IMG/VR virus record: IMGVR_UViG_3300009164_000132
Location: 1-44,496 of that record
Reading direction: 5' to 3' (one strand)
From: a virus
Length of the DNA stretch: 44,496 bases
Shown: piece after piece, positions 12,480-19,592 of the stretch
How positions within the stretch are numbered: the first letter of the stretch is position 1
Layout of the letters: the number at the start of each line of letters is the position of its first letter
Program-made: the position numbers and the translations under genes
The notes under the pieces: generated by a model
Databases searched by the model: none
Told to the model about the DNA's origin: nothing
Seen by the model: only the letters and a program-made list of their open reading frames with translations

Positions 12480-12689
12480 ATGGCTCTAACTAAAGTCCAA
12501 AGTGCAATGATCGGTGGGGGCAGCTCTGTAGCGTTTGCTCCAGAAGTACCTATTTATTTAAACACCCAGACAATCTCTACTTCTTACGCTATTCCTGCGG
12601 GGTCTTCGGCTATGTCTGTCGGGCCAATTACGATTGCAAGCGGTGTTACTGTGACGATCCCTAGCGGATCGAGATGGGCAATTTTATGA
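12480..12689 (+). CDS. Short fibre-linker protein
   Basis: 69 residues, start preceded by AAGGATAA. Opens MALTKVQSAMIGGG and ends PITIASGVTVTIPSGSRWAIL, a common segment at the end of phage fibre heads, here as an independent very short protein. Its stop overlaps the next start (ATGA at 12686). It may be a free-standing fibre base, or the remnant of a longer fibre whose C-terminal domain is now in the next gene. Length and content support a real gene. Confidence 0.62.
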   Translation: MALTKVQSAMIGGGSSVAFAPEVPIYLNTQTISTSYAIPAGSSAMSVGPITIASGVTVTIPSGSRWAIL

Positions 12690-13249
12690 GTTCTATTAGC
12701 ATCCTTGGCGATACTTCAGGTTCGGTATTACTGCAAGCCCCAGCCGTTGCTGGTAGCCCTACGCTTACTTTGCCGACTACTACTGGTACTTTGGCTATTA
12801 ATGGCCCAGCTTTTAGTGCATACGCAACTACAACTTATCAAAGCCTTGCTCAGAACACTTACACAAAGGTTACTTTTGATGCAGAAGTTTACGATACAAA
12901 CAACAACTATGCTTCAAACAGATTTACACCAACTGTTGCTGGATATTACACAATTACGAGCAAACTTCTTTTTGATGCTGCAGTAAGTAAAAACTATGCG
13001 TTTTCTAATTCAATATACAAAAATGGAACAGAATACGATTTTGTTACTAATGTTTATTTTTTTAACAATCAAACAAATACTGCAACAATACTAGCAACAA
13101 CAACTTTGTATATGAATGGAACAACTGATTATGTAGAAATTTACGCATATCAATATGACTACACATCAGGTGCCAGTATTAATGGTATTCGTGGAAATGC
13201 GACTACAAAGTATTCTACATTTACTGGCTATATGGTTAGGGGCGCATAA
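12686..13249 (+). CDS. C1q-like jelly-roll fibre protein (copy 2)
   Basis: 187 residues from ATG 12686, chosen because it overlaps the upstream stop as ATGA and gives the typical SSISILGDTSGSVLLQAP start; ATG 12674 would add 4 residues. N-terminal VAGSPTLTLPTTTGTLA is a known fibre linker. The C1q-like domain follows: FDAEVYDTNNNYASNRF, TPTVAGYYTI, SIYKNGTEYD, LYMNGTTDYVEIYAYQ and a final TGYMVRGA. A paralogue of 9544-10146 and 13249-13755, presumably with different ligand loops. Confidence 0.78.
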   Translation: MSSISILGDTSGSVLLQAPAVAGSPTLTLPTTTGTLAINGPAFSAYATTTYQSLAQNTYTKVTFDAEVYDTNNNYASNRFTPTVAGYYTITSKLLFDAAVSKNYAFSNSIYKNGTEYDFVTNVYFFNNQTNTATILATTTLYMNGTTDYVEIYAYQYDYTSGASINGIRGNATTKYSTFTGYMVRGA

Positions 13250-13755
13250 TGACAACAACAATCAATGCCTCAACCTCGTCTGGTCTGGTAGTTACTCCAG
13301 ATAACAGCGGCAACGTATTGCTTCAATATAACGGGCAAAGTGCGCCAGCTTTCTTTGCTTACGCTACAACAAATCAAACTGTAACTGCAAGTAGTGATAC
13401 AAAAATATTATTTGATACAGAACAATTTGACACAAACAACAATTTTGCTTCTAACCGTTTTACACCCACTGTTGCTGGCTATTATCAAATAAGTTGTTCA
13501 ATTGCCATTACAAATGCGGTAACTGGATATGCTGCTTTATACCCTTGGAAAAATGGGTCAAGATATGGGCAATTTGCAGAGGTTACTTTAACAACTGCGT
13601 CTTACAATTCTGTTGGTAATAGTATGTTGATATATTTTAACGGAACTACAGACTACCTTGAAATGTACCTAAATGCTGGAAATGCCGCAGTAATATACGG
13701 AACTTCTCCACAAATATTTACATATTTCTCTGGCTGTCTTTTGAGGGGCGCATAA
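13249..13755 (+). CDS. C1q-like jelly-roll fibre protein (copy 3)
   Basis: 168 residues, start coupled by TAATG. N-terminal SSGLVVTPDNSGNVLLQYNGQSAPAF is a fibre linker; the C1q-like domain shows FDTEQFDTNNNFASNRF, TPTVAGYYQISCSI, LYPWKNGSRYG, LIYFNGTTDYLEMYL and FSGCLLRGA. The core strands are close to those of copies 1 and 2 while loops differ, as expected for duplicated ligand-binding heads that diverged at the receptor surface. Confidence 0.8.
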   Translation: MTTTINASTSSGLVVTPDNSGNVLLQYNGQSAPAFFAYATTNQTVTASSDTKILFDTEQFDTNNNFASNRFTPTVAGYYQISCSIAITNAVTGYAALYPWKNGSRYGQFAEVTLTTASYNSVGNSMLIYFNGTTDYLEMYLNAGNAAVIYGTSPQIFTYFSGCLLRGA

Positions 13756-14216
13756 TGGCTTTAATTCTAAGTGGCGATACTGGCCCATCTTTTGTACAAA
13801 GCGCTGCAATGCCTACGGGGTCTGTGATTCAGACTGTTACTAACACAACCACTTCTCAAGTATCTACATCAAGCACATCATTTGTATCTGCTACTTTAGC
13901 GGTGTCAATTACCCCAACTAGTTCTTCCAATAAAGTTTTTGTTATTGTTAATACTACTGCACAAGGCAGCACAACAAATAGCTTGTATTACACAATTTAT
14001 CGTGGGGCAACAAATTTAGGTGGAGCATCATTAGGTATGGCATTGTTTAGTAATGGCAATGGTAATGAGTTTCCATTTGGTATGTCTTATTTGGATTCAC
14101 CTAATTCCACTTCTTCCACAACATATACTGTATATTTTAGAACAAATACTGGTTCTGTTTTTATGGGTGAAAACAATGTGGTTACTTCAATTACTGCTAT
14201 GGAAATTAAAGGATAA
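13755..14216 (+). CDS. Small beta-domain fibre-tip protein
   Basis: 153 residues, TAATG-coupled. Contains MPTGSVIQTVTNTTTSQVSTSSTSFVSATLAVSITPTSSSNKVFVIV, YTIYRGATNLG, GMSYLDSPNSTSSTTYTVYFR and a final TAMEIKG. This is a familiar small jelly-roll-like domain at the ends of phage fibres, here as an autonomous gene with a short N-terminal segment (LILSGDTGPSF). Likely another receptor-binding or fibre-capping subunit. Confidence 0.72.
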   Translation: MALILSGDTGPSFVQSAAMPTGSVIQTVTNTTTSQVSTSSTSFVSATLAVSITPTSSSNKVFVIVNTTAQGSTTNSLYYTIYRGATNLGGASLGMALFSNGNGNEFPFGMSYLDSPNSTSSTTYTVYFRTNTGSVFMGENNVVTSITAMEIKG

Positions 14217-14219
14217 CCC

Positions 14220-14948
14220 GTGTTCGGAATCTCAGCCTTTGCTCAATCGCCTTTTGCTGCATTAGGTGGCAATGCGTACCCAATGACGGTGACTGAGAGC
14301 TTTAACCTGTCTGACGTTTATGCCGTTCAAATGGCTTTTAGCGGGATTATTGCTGATTCTATAGCTTTGGCTGATAGCGATGGCGGTGGCACAACGTTTG
14401 ATTTCTTCTTAACCGATGCCGAGACATTCTCTTTAGATGATGCAGCGCAAGGTAATTGGTCTGGTGCAAGGGCGCTGGCAGAATCTTTTACTCTGACAGA
14501 TGCAGAAGTCGGGCAGATAGACTTTAATCCTACCGATGCCGAAACTGTAACCTTTACAGATGAGTATGCTGGAACTGGTAATTTCCCTAAAACTAACGCT
14601 GATACCGTTACATTCGCTGATGTCTGGGCAGCCAATGCTAACTTTGTAGGGGCTTTAGCAGACAGCATTACCTTTACAGATACCGAGGCTGCTACGGTTT
14701 CCTTTGTAGGAGCAGTCCTAGAGTCATTTAGCCTTACTGATGCCTGGGCAGCGCAAGTTAACTTTAAACCTACAGTAGCAGAATTAATTACATTCTTAGA
14801 AACCCAAATAGCCTATGGCTGGTTTAAAATCAACGATGACCAGTCAATTACATGGAACGCATTAAACAATAGTCAAAGCATTACTTGGAGTGATGTAAGT
14901 GATGACCAAACTCCAAATTGGACTCAAATTAACAATAGTCAATTTTAA
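14220..14948 (+). CDS. Tandem-repeat beta protein of the fibre cassette
   Basis: 242 residues with a GTG start at 14220, preceded by AAGGA at about 7 bases; ATG 14283 is an in-frame alternative, but the residues before it (FGISAFAQSPFAALGG) look like a conserved N-terminus. Residues about 22-195 consist of eight or nine degenerate units of roughly 20-22 residues built on ESFxLTDAxAxxxxF. The C-terminal 40 residues switch to short Trp repeats (QSITW, QTPNW). Probably a fibrous virion component. No enzyme motif. Confidence 0.68.
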   Translation: MFGISAFAQSPFAALGGNAYPMTVTESFNLSDVYAVQMAFSGIIADSIALADSDGGGTTFDFFLTDAETFSLDDAAQGNWSGARALAESFTLTDAEVGQIDFNPTDAETVTFTDEYAGTGNFPKTNADTVTFADVWAANANFVGALADSITFTDTEAATVSFVGAVLESFSLTDAWAAQVNFKPTVAELITFLETQIAYGWFKINDDQSITWNALNNSQSITWSDVSDDQTPNWTQINNSQF

Positions 14949-14957
14949 GGAATCACT

Positions 14958-15734
14958 ATGGCTTCTACCTATTCACCATCGCTTAAATTAGAGCTTATCG
15001 GTGCTGGAGACCAGTCTGGTACATGGGGCAGCACAACCAATAACAACTTGGGAATCCTCCTAGAACAAGCCATTACTGGCGTTCAACCGATTACCATGTC
15101 TAATGCAGACTATGTTCTAACAAGTTTTAACGGCACGGCTGATGAAGCCCGCAATCAAGTTTTAGTCATTTCTGGTACAAACTCTGCTATTCGGCAAGTC
15201 GTAGCCCCATTAGTAGAGAAGACTTATATCATCTCTAACCAAACTACAGGCGGTTTTGCCATTACCATTGGCGGCACTACAGGTGTAGCAGTTACCATTC
15301 CCAACGGAATTACCGCCCAAGTATTTTGTAACGGCACTAACTTCTACTCTTCCCAGACTGGCTCTGCGGGTAACTTTTACGTTAACGGAACATTGTTAGT
15401 TGGAGGGGCGCAGACCAATACGACTAGTCTTAGCGTAGGAACTACTCTAGCCGTTACTGGCGCTACTACCTTGGCTGCTGCAACTGGAACCACTATTACC
15501 GCATCTACCCAGTTTGTTGGTCCAGGAACAGGTCTTACAGGCACAGGCGCTTCCTTTACCGCAGGTAACGCTACCTTGGCTGCAAGTGCCACCCAGTTAC
15601 TAGGTGCTAACTGGACAGTTTTAGAATCTGCTGGATACCTCTATTTCCGCTATGGGGGGGTCAATAAGATGCGATTAGATTCAACTGGCAACCTAGTCTG
15701 TACAGGTAACGTAACCGCTTACGGAACAATCTAA
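14958..15734 (+). CDS. Phage tail fibre-type protein
   Basis: 258 residues, AAGGA upstream. The N-terminus (MASTYSPSLKLELIGAGDQSG, TWGSTTNNNLGILLEQAITG) and NQTTGGFAITIGGTTG followed by VTIPNGITAQVFCNGTN are characteristic of a widespread phage fibre protein. C-terminal TLAVTGATTL and YLYFRYGGVNKMRLDSTGNL segments are trimeric fibre-shaft type. It contains a run of seven G at 15654-15660. Its stop overlaps the start of the radical SAM gene (TAATG), linking fibre synthesis to that cassette. Confidence 0.78.
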   Translation: MASTYSPSLKLELIGAGDQSGTWGSTTNNNLGILLEQAITGVQPITMSNADYVLTSFNGTADEARNQVLVISGTNSAIRQVVAPLVEKTYIISNQTTGGFAITIGGTTGVAVTIPNGITAQVFCNGTNFYSSQTGSAGNFYVNGTLLVGGAQTNTTSLSVGTTLAVTGATTLAAATGTTITASTQFVGPGTGLTGTGASFTAGNATLAASATQLLGANWTVLESAGYLYFRYGGVNKMRLDSTGNLVCTGNVTAYGTI

Positions 15735-17176
15735 TGCTCTTTGAGATACACGCTGAACGCAGCGCTAACGAGAAGAAGGTCTTCTTCTACGATAACGAAA
15801 CAAACGTTCTAAAAGGGGCAGATGGTACTGTATTTAAGTTTCCTGACGATCAGATGCCAACAGTAGATAACAAGCCTTTTGTGCCGTTTGACAAAGACCA
15901 CCCACTTAAAAAGTCTAAGAACATTGGTTTACTTAAAATCCAGTTAGGCTTGGGATGTAACTATTCCTGCGACTATTGCTCCCAAAAGTTTGTAGAGCGT
16001 TCAGACTCAACCTCCCCTAAAGACATTAGCGCTTTCTTAGAAAAGATGGAAAAGCTCCACTTTGTTGAAGAAAACGGCTTAAAGGTAGAGTTCTGGGGCG
16101 GTGAGCCATTGGTTTATTGGAAAACCCTCAAACCTTTGGCAGAAGCTATCCAGGCTAAGTTTGAGCATTGGGAAAAGAAACCCCAGTTCTCCATTATTAC
16201 CAACGGATCTATCCTGACTGAAGAGATCATTGACTGGCTAATGATGATGGACTTTACTGTCTCTATCTCTCATGATGGTCCTGGGCAGTCTGTCCGTGGT
16301 CCAGATCCTTTTGATGACCCAGTTAAGAAAGAATTAATCCTTGGCTTTTACCGCCAGATGACCCGTCTCAAAAAGGGTATCAGTTTTAACTCTATGCTGT
16401 CCCGCAACAATAAGAGCCGTAAAGAGATCTCTGACTGGTTTAGAGAACTAACAGGCGATCCTAATATCTCATTAGGCGAAGGCGGTATCGTGGATGCTTA
16501 CGATGAGGATGGCATTACTAACTCCCTACAAAGCCTTCAGGATCACTTTGAGTTCCGTAGAACAGCGTTTGCTGACATCTTCTCTACCGATGGTGACATT
16601 GCTTTTAAGATGCAATTAGACAAGATTAACAACTTTACTGGTGCGGTTTTATCCCGTCAGAATTCTAAATATCTAGGGCAAAAATGCGGCATGGACAATG
16701 AACACGTTCTAGCCGTAGACCTCAAAGGTAACGTCTTAACCTGCCAGAATGTCAGCGCAGTAGAGACTTCTAAGAACGGTGAATCTCATTTGGGTGGCAC
16801 TTTAGATGACTATGACAATGTAGAGATCAAGACCTCTACCCATTGGTCTAGCCGTAAAGAATGTTCTTCCTGCCCAGTTCTTCACCTCTGTAAGGGCGCT
16901 TGTATGTTCCTAGACAAGAAGTTCTGGGACATCTCCTGCGCCAATGCGTACTCAGATAACGTGGCTTTATTTGCTCTTGCAATGCACAAAATGACAGGTT
17001 ACATTCCTACATTGATTAAGAATGATGCGTTGCCATTAGAGCGTCAAGATGTATTTGGAACAATCTATGAGCATAAAGAAACCCCTAAAAGGGTTATTCC
17101 AATTAAGGTAGTCAGCGAGATTGTGGCTAAGATTGATGATGTAGAAATCTATGGAAAATCGAGGGTAGCAGCATGA
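15734..17176 (+). CDS. Radical SAM enzyme with SPASM domain (peptide-maturase-like)
   Basis: 480 residues. The radical SAM site is C75-x3-C79-x2-C82, with GGEP at 122-125 and ITNG at 155-158. The C-terminal SPASM pattern is complete: C318, G332-x4-C337, C377-x2-C380-x5-C386-x3-C390 and C402, enough for two auxiliary iron-sulfur clusters. Enzymes of this architecture (anSMEs and thioether-forming RiPP maturases) modify Cys, Ser or other residues in peptides and proteins. The start overlaps the upstream fibre stop, and the stop overlaps the start of the Asn-Cys-rich protein (ATGA at 17173). That neighbour is the obvious candidate substrate; this is inference. A sulfatase-maturase role is less likely because no sulfatase is nearby. 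Confidence 0.9.
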   Translation: MLFEIHAERSANEKKVFFYDNETNVLKGADGTVFKFPDDQMPTVDNKPFVPFDKDHPLKKSKNIGLLKIQLGLGCNYSCDYCSQKFVERSDSTSPKDISAFLEKMEKLHFVEENGLKVEFWGGEPLVYWKTLKPLAEAIQAKFEHWEKKPQFSIITNGSILTEEIIDWLMMMDFTVSISHDGPGQSVRGPDPFDDPVKKELILGFYRQMTRLKKGISFNSMLSRNNKSRKEISDWFRELTGDPNISLGEGGIVDAYDEDGITNSLQSLQDHFEFRRTAFADIFSTDGDIAFKMQLDKINNFTGAVLSRQNSKYLGQKCGMDNEHVLAVDLKGNVLTCQNVSAVETSKNGESHLGGTLDDYDNVEIKTSTHWSSRKECSSCPVLHLCKGACMFLDKKFWDISCANAYSDNVALFALAMHKMTGYIPTLIKNDALPLERQDVFGTIYEHKETPKRVIPIKVVSEIVAKIDDVEIYGKSRVAA

Positions 17177-18039
17177 CATTACCATCTTCAGGACCAATAG
17201 CAATTAGTGCTATCAACGTAGAAGTTGGACAGGCTTCTACCTACTCCAATAACTTGCAATTTCTAAACACCTTAATACTTACCCCACCAGCTACGCCTAA
17301 TTTAAGTGCTTTCTATGGATTAACGTATTACCTCAAAACTGCGCCAGGAAATTGCGATAATGGTAACTGCGCAACAAACTGTAACTGCGGAAACATCCAA
17401 TGTTCTAACTGCCTATACGGGGGTACGGTCAATTGCAGTACAGACCAGACTCAATCATGGTTACAGACTAACTGTAACTGCGCCTGTACTTATAACTGCG
17501 TGGCTACTGCTACCACTTATAACTGCAACTGTAACTGTGCTTGCTCTAAGATTATCTGCACCAAGCTCTATGAGATTGGCATGATGCCTTATGACATCTT
17601 CGTTGCTGACCAGGCCTATGGTGAATGGCTCAAGACTAATGACCGCATCGTTTACCGTGGCTACATTAAATGGGCTAGAAACGTTACCGCTTGGATTGAT
17701 GGTGGTGGACCAGACTTTATGATCTGGATCAGAGATGAGGCTACCCGTAAGCGCAAACAGAAAGAAGCAGCTACCAAATGGGCATATAAGATTGCTACTC
17801 CTTGGTCTCAGCATATGGCTTACCTCATGGGGGCTACTAAGTCTGATAACGATATGGGTCGTACCATTATGAAAATTGGTAGACCTATCTGTAAGCTGGT
17901 ATTCCTATTGCCTAAGAAGCGTGTAGTGCCTGACTTTGTTGCTACTTGGACTATGTGGGCGCTATTCTTCTTTAGCTATTACACCGCCAAAGCAAACTTA
18001 AACATCAAAGGTATTTCATGGAAAACACAGAAAGCATAG
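17173..18039 (+). CDS. Tail-type protein with Asn-Cys-rich insert and C-terminal membrane segment
   Basis: 288 residues in three parts. Residues 1-50 (MTLPSSGPIAISAINVE...ATPNLSAFYGL) match the N-terminal attachment domain of many phage/prophage fibre-like proteins. Residues 60-129 hold 16 Cys, 12 of them preceded by Asn, with TNCNCAC and YNCNCNCAC units. Residues 130-288 (TKLYEIGMMPYDIFVADQAYGEWL, GYIKWARNVTAWIDG, ATPWSQHMAYLMGA) are a domain I recall from proteins of aquatic phages, ending in a hydrophobic segment at about 253-272. I predict that the middle part is post-translationally modified by the adjacent radical SAM enzyme and hydroxylases. Metal binding or a disulfide mesh are alternatives. 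Confidence 0.85.
   Translation: MTLPSSGPIAISAINVEVGQASTYSNNLQFLNTLILTPPATPNLSAFYGLTYYLKTAPGNCDNGNCATNCNCGNIQCSNCLYGGTVNCSTDQTQSWLQTNCNCACTYNCVATATTYNCNCNCACSKIICTKLYEIGMMPYDIFVADQAYGEWLKTNDRIVYRGYIKWARNVTAWIDGGGPDFMIWIRDEATRKRKQKEAATKWAYKIATPWSQHMAYLMGATKSDNDMGRTIMKIGRPICKLVFLLPKKRVVPDFVATWTMWALFFFSYYTAKANLNIKGISWKTQKA
17350..17559 (+). repeat. Asn-Cys-rich coding repeat region
   Basis: Encodes residues 60-129 of the preceding entry. The 11-base unit AACTGTAACTG occurs exactly at 17377-17387, 17470-17480 and 17527-17537, each coding Asn-Cys-Asn-Cys. Shorter AAYTGY units fill the rest. The pattern suggests growth by local duplication, with the Asn-Cys pair as the selected unit. Confidence 0.85.
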
Positions 18040-18353
18040 TCCCTGTAGCAGAGTACACAAGGATGGAAGATACCGAGCTGTATCGTCAGCACGTTATCCA
18101 TTTCTTTGATACCCAGCTTGGGCATGACATTGTTACGATGTCACCAGATAAAAAAGTTAAGCTTTTCAAGATGTTATCAGAGTATTCTGATGTATTGCGT
18201 GAACTATTGCACGATGGTATTCCGCTAATTGAACACGTTCTAGGCAACTCCTGGAACATGAATGGTGATGTAACTCAGGCACATGAAATGATTCGTCAAT
18301 ATGAGGCATGGAAAAATGCACCAAAAGCTGAAGACGAAGTTCAACAACCTTGA
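18018..18353 (+). CDS. Small protein of unknown function in the radical SAM/hydroxylase cassette
   Basis: 111 residues. ATG 18018 is preceded by AAAGG and lies inside the end of the upstream gene (22-base overlap). It overlaps the next gene by 38 bases, so all are probably co-translated. The sequence is acidic and mostly helical, with His residues (YRQHVIHFFDTQLGHDI, LLHDGIPLIEHVLGNSW) and no Cys. I do not recognise the family. Conservation of its position with the modifying enzymes would suggest an adaptor or accessory role, but nothing in the sequence proves this. Confidence 0.7.
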   Translation: MENTESIVPVAEYTRMEDTELYRQHVIHFFDTQLGHDIVTMSPDKKVKLFKMLSEYSDVLRELLHDGIPLIEHVLGNSWNMNGDVTQAHEMIRQYEAWKNAPKAEDEVQQP

Positions 18354-18831
18354 GTTTTTTGCGATGGGCAAGCAAGTATCCTATGGCGGTGCTATAGAGT
18401 ATTTTGACGTTGATATTGACCCATTGTCAGTTATCAAAGTTATTCCGCCTAGATATGTCAAAGACTTCTATTTGTCTATGATGCAGATTAATCAAGCCAT
18501 CCCTCCCCATACCGATAGCGAGATTAAGACCACGATTAACTTCTATGTAAAGACTAAGCCTTGCAGGACAGTCTTTTATGAAACCAAGCCAGAGTTCTCT
18601 ATATCCCAAATAGAAAGCCAGACTAACGGCTACGTTTTTGACCCTGATGGGTTAACAGAGGTTAGTTCGTTTGTAGCTGAAGTTGGCGATGCCTGGTGCT
18701 TAGATGTAACTAACCCTCATGCTGTAGAACCTATTAATGGTTTAGATGAAAGAGTGGCAATCTGCATGGGGACACCTAAATACAATTACGAGCAAGTCTG
18801 CAGGATGCTGGCTGAAACTGGGCATATCTAA
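18316..18831 (+). CDS. 2-oxoglutarate/Fe(II) dioxygenase-like protein
   Basis: 171 residues from ATG 18316; ATG 18301 and ATG 18364 are alternatives, and the first has no clear ribosome-binding site. The motif set fits a double-stranded beta-helix dioxygenase: H65-x-D67 (in IPPHTDSE), distal H135 (in TNPHAVEP) and R146 eleven residues later, a usual 2-oxoglutarate-binding position. Such enzymes hydroxylate protein side chains or small molecules using O2. Placement directly before an Asp/Asn hydroxylase-like gene and after a radical SAM/Cys-rich pair suggests a protein-modifying role. TAATG joins it to the next gene. Confidence 0.72.
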   Translation: MHQKLKTKFNNLEFFAMGKQVSYGGAIEYFDVDIDPLSVIKVIPPRYVKDFYLSMMQINQAIPPHTDSEIKTTINFYVKTKPCRTVFYETKPEFSISQIESQTNGYVFDPDGLTEVSSFVAEVGDAWCLDVTNPHAVEPINGLDERVAICMGTPKYNYEQVCRMLAETGHI

Positions 18832-19592
18832 TGTTTTACGAAGAGCTAGACTTTCTTAAGTTTGACATTGATGCCTTACGGGAAGAGGTCAAGCGTAGCG
18901 TATTTCCGCTTGGCAATCAGGTTATTCAGGGTGAGGAATACGAGACTCCTCAGTATCAAGGCTTTGGTGGCTGGAGTCTGTTATCCCGTACTGGTGATTG
19001 GCAGGATGGCTTTGAGTTCTATCAAGGCGCTGATAAGGCTGACATTAATATGAAAGCCATGAAGTATCTAAACATAGCCCATTCAATGGAATATAAGAAG
19101 CCTACCCAAGCTTGTGTAGGTGAGATTAAAAATATCTTAGATCAAATTGCCAAGCTAGGCTTAACACCCAGAAGAGCCAGAGTGACTTGTCTAAAGGCGC
19201 ATTGCAAGTCATTAGTGCATACCGATGGTGAGCTTACAGAATACATAGCCAGGATTCATATCCCTTTATTTACTAATAAGAGGTGCCTGTTTATTTCCGA
19301 TGGTACAAACCTACACATGGAAGCTGGCAAAGCCTATATGGTATGGGTAAACAACTGGCATCAGATTCGTAACGATTCGGATGAAGACCGTTATCACATC
19401 ATTATGGATGCGTATGACACCCAGAAAATTACCCAGAATTTTCAATACAATGGAAGCATAGAACAGCTTGAAGACTATGCCATCCAGTTTAGAAAAACAA
19501 TGGAAGAGACTGTTTTGGATGCAGATGATTTAGCCAGAATTGAATCTATGAGACAAAAATACGTTACAAAAGGTTTAAGACAAAGTGCTTAA
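18831..19592 (+). CDS. Aspartyl/asparaginyl beta-hydroxylase-like protein
   Basis: 253 residues. The Asp/Asn beta-hydroxylase signature lies at residues 115-194: RARVTCLKAHCKSLVH, H130-x-D132, RIHIPLFTNK, GKAYMVWVNNWH with distal H177, N181, then DRYHIIMDAYD with R187. These are the iron ligands and 2-oxoglutarate-binding positions of that family. The N-terminal 100 residues are family-specific and the last 50 form a charged helix. Enzymes of this type hydroxylate Asp or Asn in proteins and, in the lantibiotic cinnamycin (CinX), a RiPP residue by a related 2OG reaction. Asn residues of the Asn-Cys-rich protein are plausible targets; unproven. Confidence 0.82.
   Translation: MFYEELDFLKFDIDALREEVKRSVFPLGNQVIQGEEYETPQYQGFGGWSLLSRTGDWQDGFEFYQGADKADINMKAMKYLNIAHSMEYKKPTQACVGEIKNILDQIAKLGLTPRRARVTCLKAHCKSLVHTDGELTEYIARIHIPLFTNKRCLFISDGTNLHMEAGKAYMVWVNNWHQIRNDSDEDRYHIIMDAYDTQKITQNFQYNGSIEQLEDYAIQFRKTMEETVLDADDLARIESMRQKYVTKGLRQSA

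Follow-up and report, generated by a model that had tools for sequence, protein, structure and literature searches.

A radical SAM/SPASM enzyme and the cysteine tracts of phage tail proteins as the core of a putative protein-maturation cassette

The virus record IMGVR_UViG_3300009164_000132, analysed over its whole length of 44,496 bases (hereafter the window), contains five close-packed genes in which each gene overlaps its successor. These encode a radical S-adenosylmethionine (SAM) enzyme with a SPASM domain, a protein with a Cys-rich tract, a small conserved protein and two oxygenase-like proteins. We propose that this cassette serves the maturation of a component of the phage tail, a reading to which we give a probability of roughly 0.75. 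Comparison of related loci indicates that the core unit is the enzyme and the tract only, common to many phages and prophages in which it occurs on unrelated tail proteins, and that the tract is very probably the substrate of the enzyme.

The Cys-tract protein starts with a short N-terminal part (residues 1-60), followed by a tract with 16 Cys (residues 61-129) and a helical domain (residues 125-288) that we label SKIIC after its first residues. In the AlphaFold model the tract has a predicted local distance difference test score (pLDDT) of ~35 and the SKIIC domain one of >80, with most of the domain >90; searches of SKIIC against the PDB, by sequence and by fold, gave no credible match. Residues 61-129 hold 11 Asn-Cys pairs, against a mean of 3.0 and a maximum of 9 in shuffles of the same 69 residues, and the remaining translated proteins of the window have 0.47% Cys and at most five Cys in any 69-residue stretch. 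The initial annotation of this DNA had counted 16 Cys in 69 residues, which agrees with our count, and 12 Asn-Cys pairs, a figure reached only if N60 is included. When the tract Cys codons shared with homologues were compared, 392 were identical, 375 synonymous and 152 replaced, a pattern indicating that the Cys of the tract are kept by selection at the protein level; an origin of the tract as a DNA-repeat artefact was ruled out, because the Cys codons differ synonymously. The residue that precedes Cys is most often Asn, both in 62 different window-type proteins (926 Cys: N 715, A 98, Q 60, D 45, other 8) and in 61 different C-terminal tracts found mainly on other carriers (N 263, A 54, D 36, then C 24), and Cys spacings of 2 and 5 are frequent in the window-type tracts. 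We also considered the hydroxylation consensus of the epidermal growth factor type (CX[DN]X4[FY]XCXC), whose spacing partly fits by eye, and dropped it because the D/N position is not kept. One tract is unusual in that CACDC units are repeated in place of NC (L042, 7021-8034, 28 Cys).

To assess the association between enzyme and tract, we followed it from both sides. A search of IMG/VR with the enzyme returned 80 close loci at 67-81% identity, and a search with a wider profile returned at least 547 viral relatives of the enzyme family. The tract protein lies beside or near the enzyme in 78 of the 80 close loci and the remaining two stop at a contig edge. The initial annotation had named a SPASM gene that regularly lacks a Cys-rich partner as fatal to its proposal; this was looked for and not found. 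Where at least 4.7 kb of sequence is available downstream, the tract protein is present in 61/61 loci, the Asp/Asn beta-hydroxylase-like protein (AspH) in 61/61, and the second oxygenase-like protein (hereafter the HxD protein, after its HxD...H...R motif) in 60/61. The contigs of the close loci range from 4 to 357 kb, and the cassette therefore moves, as judged from these records, between very different phages. Relatives of the enzyme in bacterial genomes were found at 90 loci, mostly in Alpha- and Betaproteobacteria; counting the 80 that were kept, a protein with an XCXCXC tract lies near the enzyme in 56, and 12 others have less than 3 kb of sequence before the enzyme. In Achromobacter phage JWF, a cultured siphovirus (PMC3899368), the enzyme occurs at 44% identity, and a tail-fibre-like protein encoded two genes upstream contains NCNCDCNCNC immediately before a Hint domain.

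From the opposite side, a DNA scan with a 21-base CNCNCNC pattern, in which the enzyme played no part in the selection, yielded a sample, among the matches listed, of 57 proteins with a tract at most 40 residues from the C-terminus; an enzyme gene on the same strand accompanies 37 of the 38 C-terminal-tract proteins that have at least 3 kb downstream. Within 66 enzyme-free control loci (1350 open reading frames, ORFs), a looser tract pattern appeared in two opposite-strand ORFs only (SCSCSC and SCSCTC). The SKIIC domain provides a natural control. In 70 loci where SKIIC follows poly-Gly, poly-Pro, poly-Arg or Hint, the enzyme family was not found within 8 kb, whereas the enzyme is present in 6/6 loci of the same set where SKIIC follows a Cys tract (Fisher P = 5e-9, a value inflated by relatedness, since the related sequences in the co-occurrence counts are not independent events). 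When 40 of the enzyme-free SKIIC records were searched whole, no member of the enzyme family was found, and two of the enzyme-free records encode other radical SAM proteins with a weak match of 34 bits. Conversely, window-type proteins without SKIIC (L085, L086, L261, L269, L284, L316 and L348) terminate with the tract or shortly behind it, and the enzyme is present all the same. Because SKIIC without a tract lacks the enzyme and a tract without SKIIC keeps it, the enzyme follows the tract and not the SKIIC domain; this control, together with the two-way co-occurrence, indicates that tract and enzyme are a functional pair. In three enzyme-free loci (L410, L412 and L427), SKIIC comes straight after a Hint-like segment ending in VHN, which suggests that Hint and tract are alternative elements ahead of SKIIC.

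The tract is not tied to one kind of protein. With the tracts removed, 176 carriers group into three large clusters, with six singletons left over, indicating that the tract is borne by at least three unrelated tail-protein families. Carriers range in size from ~80 to 600 amino acids (aa), many match tail-fibre PHROGs, and the tract usually occupies their extreme C-terminus or, in some cases, a position ahead of a Hint domain, with the first Cys of Hint directly after the tract. Self-cleavage by Hint, if active, would leave the tract again at the end of the protein. The tract protein of the window is itself a candidate tail protein, on account of its gene context and the shared SKIIC domain only. 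We rejected the idea that the enzyme is an auxiliary metabolic gene unrelated to structure, since its gene sits in a tail operon and tracks the tract.

Structural and lysis genes occupy ~2.9-29 kb of the window and encode virion and tail-fibre families, a gene-transfer-agent-type holin, a GH19 lysin, a virion structural protein and an ejection protein. The five genes lie within this block, and their features, with the gene that precedes them, are as follows (all on the plus strand).

14958..15734, +, upstream tail-fibre-like protein, 258 aa; phrog_31104, E 2e-13; phrog_12796 (tail fibre), E 1e-8
15734..17176, +, radical SAM/SPASM enzyme, 480 aa; PF04055, E 4e-10; phrog_1802, E 3.5e-63; TIGR04085
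16685..16939, +, SPASM domain with seven Cys (C318 to C402)
17173..18039, +, Cys-tract protein, 288 aa, likely substrate; homologue adjacent in 78/80 loci
17353..17559, +, Asn-Cys tract, residues 61-129, 16 Cys; predicted disordered, pLDDT ~35
17545..18036, +, C-terminal SKIIC helical domain, residues 125-288; pLDDT >80, mostly >90
18018..18353, +, small conserved protein, 111 aa; profile in 58/69 enzyme loci
18316..18831, +, HxD...H...R cupin-fold protein, 2-oxoglutarate (2OG)-Fe(II) oxygenase-like, ~171 aa
18831..19592, +, Aspartyl/asparaginyl beta-hydroxylase family protein (AspH, PF05118), 253 aa; E 1.5e-10; HxD, H and R invariant

The enzyme gene starts within the stop codon of the tail-fibre-like gene (TAATG, a one-base overlap) and the Cys-tract gene within that of the enzyme (ATGA), and because of these overlaps the enzyme and the Cys-tract protein are probably translated together. 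The initial annotation had described the same five overlapping genes at these places; the start of the HxD gene is probably at 18316 and not at 18301, because homologues begin there. Elsewhere in the window, a tail-fibre-like protein with a Gly_rich_2 domain (PF21722, 7793-9229) shows that a glycine-rich segment is in use in this phage too, a pair of similar adjoining proteins lies in the fibre region (12674-13755, the first with a weak C1q match), and a polyvalent protein of 3683 aa carries LPD38 and a Strawberry-notch type helicase (PF13871/PF13872; 29014-40065).

The enzyme belongs to the radical SAM superfamily, with its CX3CX2C motif at C75/C79/C82 and a PF04055 score of 40.5 bits (cut-off 29.5), and it has a complete SPASM pattern of seven Cys, C318-x13-GX4C337 and C377X2C380X5C386X3C390...C402, with a TIGR04085 score of 35.1 bits (cut-off 27). 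The motif and SPASM Cys are invariant across 12 relatives, Achromobacter phage JWF among them. Its top NCBIfam match is PapB (NF047865; 84.8 bits, E 6e-24), which falls short of the equivalog cut-off of 340, followed by QhpD (TIGR03906; 78.5 bits against a cut-off of 453); the geopeptide, CcpM and Nif11-type maturases are the other leading NCBI families and likewise score well under their equivalog cut-offs. Relatives in the PDB by sequence are 8vpo, 5wgg, which we take to be CteB, and anaerobic sulfatase maturases. In a plasmid search the enzyme matched mainly QhpD/PeaB genes of quinohemoprotein amine dehydrogenase maturation, over 70% of its length at 23-24% identity. Since it falls below the equivalog cut-offs, we place it in a separate SPASM family whose closest neighbours are enzymes that modify proteins and peptides, often by forming thioethers. 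Window-type enzymes form a single clade within this family. Tandem or divergent radical SAM genes in Magnetospirillum and Sutterellaceae-type genomes (L135, L140, L156, L158 and L159), some of them near CSYCSYC or TTVNC repeats, are probably sister systems with another repeat. Near more distant radical SAM genes, short proteins with HTHxFxDDYST and an NC tract at the end (L245, 11423-11662; L323, 6394-6597; L254, 2432-2635) are possibly an independent pairing.

The family assignments suggested earlier for the two oxygenase-like proteins agree with our comparisons. In the HxD protein, H70, D72, H140 and R151 are invariant in 44 homologues. It has no match in Pfam; its AlphaFold model (pLDDT 92.6) finds cupin and double-stranded beta-helix proteins in the PDB (E ~1e-4, template modelling (TM) scores 0.35-0.46), 2OG enzymes included, with the protein hydroxylases MINA53 and NO66 among them at modest TM-scores of 0.40-0.46. 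In its predicted fold, the protein thus combines the double-stranded beta-helix, HxD...H and distal R of a 2OG-Fe(II) oxygenase. AspH scores 41.6 bits against PF05118 (cut-off 22.6), with HxD, H and R kept in 53/53 homologues, which places it in that family. The small protein is a conserved gene and no stray ORF: its profile is found in 58/69 enzyme loci and in 0/70 SKIIC loci without the enzyme; that it is an adaptor or a chaperone is a guess.

The distribution of these three proteins differs from that of the core pair. None of them was found in the 80 bacterial-genome loci, in the 44 tract-seeded enzyme loci or in the 70 enzyme-free SKIIC loci, and because they are absent outside one enzyme clade, they are best described, from their distribution, as a lineage-specific extension tied to the combination of tract, SKIIC and enzyme. 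Hence, the earlier view of a maturation cassette in a tail operon holds for the functional link between enzyme and tract and not for the oxygenases as a core part; co-occurrence with NC-rich tail proteins is general, co-occurrence with both oxygenases is confined to the window clade, and the proposed Asn hydroxylation is an add-on at most, given that the oxygenases are absent from the 80 genome loci and the 44 tract-seeded loci. Some relatives have larger cassettes: among the 80 close loci, PF13759 oxygenases occur in 62, FA_desaturase-type proteins in 17 and B12 radical SAM proteins in 20, and second HxD copies are also seen. Membrane proteins of the fatty-acid-desaturase family (PF00487) are inserted in two of these (L008, 9616-10317; L016, 4889-5626), where a diiron enzyme adjoining a peptide maturase is an odd combination, and in L059 a B12-binding radical SAM protein follows immediately after AspH (12775-14292).

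To account for these observations, we propose that the enzyme, made along with the tail protein, would bind the tract protein and abstract hydrogen from residues of the disordered [Asn/Asp/Ala/Gln]-Cys tract, and that nearby Cys sulfurs would then close thioether bridges to carbon atoms of tract residues, as QhpD and PapB do. Thioether bridging is the likeliest chemistry because the best-matching characterised enzymes (QhpD, PapB and CteB) make Cys thioethers, and by this analogy we give it an even chance. Hydroxylation of Asn, Asp or other residues of the same protein may then follow in the window clade, through its two oxygenases of the Fe(II)/2OG type; that they act on the same protein as the enzyme is a suggestion we favour by a little. 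A tail fibre or tail protein treated in this way would carry at its distal end a stiff tip or linker that is stable to oxidation, in which the crosslinked tract would take the place held in relatives by polyglycine, polyproline or Hint segments, and the tract protein is likely to be present in the virion as such a tip.

Several observations weigh against a maturation module for a tail component. The candidate substrate is large and has no recognised leader peptide or dedicated protease; with a likely substrate of 288 aa, carriers of ~80-600 aa and a five-gene cassette without a protease, the system falls outside the ribosomally synthesised and post-translationally modified peptides (RiPPs) in the strict sense. 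Twelve of the 80 bacterial-genome loci have a usable flank and lack a strict-pattern tract; on inspection about five of them (L111, L135, L140, L148 and L159) contain variant tracts and the rest have none, and some of the tract-less loci probably represent distant members or prophages in decay. Only one enzyme clade has the oxygenases, so that their link may be plain inheritance. In addition, the enzyme misses the equivalog cut-offs of all thioether-forming families, and the reaction could therefore be another. An enzyme that acts on the tract and makes a different product (a carbon-carbon link, epimerisation, Cys decarboxylation or dehydro residues, possibly giving a metal-binding or sticky tip) is a substantial possibility, though short of probable: according to PMC9062424, cyclophanes and other links are also among the products of SPASM enzymes, and in cluster 59 of that paper a peptide of Asp-Cys repeats accompanies a SPASM enzyme without a known product. 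Set against this, Cys thioethers are what PapB, QhpD and CteB make, the characterised families and PDB relatives with the best scores, and within the tract Cys is fixed while its partner varies among N, A, Q and D only.

A tip in which the tract simply forms disulfides or binds metal (Fe-S, Zn or Cu), working without covalent maturation while the enzyme modifies something else, seems unlikely to us. Alternating CxC strings in other proteins bind metals, and virion proteins are oxidised outside the cell, but neither accounts for a tract on unrelated tail proteins with the enzyme alongside in 37/38, or for the missing enzyme where the SKIIC domain has no tract. Another reading makes the tract protein the precursor of a secreted toxin or bacteriocin, RiPP-like in kind, which phages carry and which is not part of the virion. 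This would fit the resemblance of precursor, SPASM enzyme and oxygenases to RiPP clusters as well as the hydrophobic helices at the end of the SKIIC domain; it is improbable, because the carriers are tail-fibre-like, 90-600 aa in length and located in tail operons, SKIIC also ends DUF4815 and other phage structural proteins, and no transporter or peptidase was seen nearby. Finally, the co-occurrence might reflect inherited synteny of genes without a functional tie, as the restriction of the window-type cassette to one enzyme clade would allow. This explanation is highly improbable, since gene order, spacing (from overlapping to ~4 kb) and carrier vary across the tree and contigs range from 4 to 357 kb, and tract and enzyme nevertheless stay together.

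With the maturation of a tail component retained as the preferred reading, we incline to a broader proposal, namely that distal tail tips built of enzyme-crosslinked Asn-Cys repeats with a dedicated radical SAM maturase represent a widespread, undescribed form of virion maturation, to which some lineages may add several oxygenases, a desaturase-like diiron protein and a B12 radical SAM enzyme. Among open-licence PMC papers, we found no published description that joins radical SAM enzymes with phage tails, Hint domains, virion crosslinks or Cys-rich tail proteins, and no radical SAM text was found in a deep-learning paper on RiPPs and phages (PMC11118758). If the proposal is true, virions contain covalent bridges made by radical SAM enzymes, which would alter ideas on what makes tail tips stiff, stable or able to contact receptors; the chemistry of peptide maturation would then reach beyond small natural products to the structural proteins of viruses. 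It also offers a testable function for the large phage family phrog_1802, annotated merely as 'radical SAM domain-containing', and a set of hundreds of natural substrates whose repeats follow a simple rule, with cultured Achromobacter phage JWF and prophages of harmless water bacteria as an experimental entry.

Known systems resemble the cassette in part. PapB makes repeated Cys-to-Asp thioethers in substrates with a CX3D motif. As the best NCBIfam match of the enzyme (84.8 bits), the PapB-type ranthipeptide maturases are close to it, but they act on short peptide natural products, their CX3D motif differs from an alternating NC, and the cut-off of 340 is not reached. Cluster 59 of a radical SAM network places a SPASM enzyme beside a peptide with up to six repeats of an Asp-Cys motif (PMC9062424); the likeness is by description only, and this system has three genes including a recombinase, and a peptide not described as a tail protein. 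The S16 gp38 adhesin, with a polyglycine sandwich at the distal tail-fibre tip (PMC6851490), is like the proposed tract in being a stiff, low-complexity distal segment, and SKIIC follows Gly-rich segments in relatives of the window; unlike the tract, the gp38 tip relies on backbone hydrogen bonds, with no enzyme and no Cys. QhpD differs from the enzyme of the window in serving a bacterial periplasmic enzyme, in making three bridges at fixed sites and not in an alternating repeat, in having an N-terminal leader and a dedicated protease, and in its score (78.5 against an equivalog of 453). Nevertheless, QhpD/PeaB and QhpC (the quinohemoprotein amine dehydrogenase gamma subunit) resemble the cassette in that the gene of a SPASM enzyme clusters with that of a Cys-rich substrate of protein size, which in the window is a candidate substrate: QhpD introduces three Cys-to-Asp/Glu thioethers into QhpC, a flavin oxygenase of that complex is a second enzyme acting on QhpC, and QhpC then joins a larger assembly (PMC7876137).

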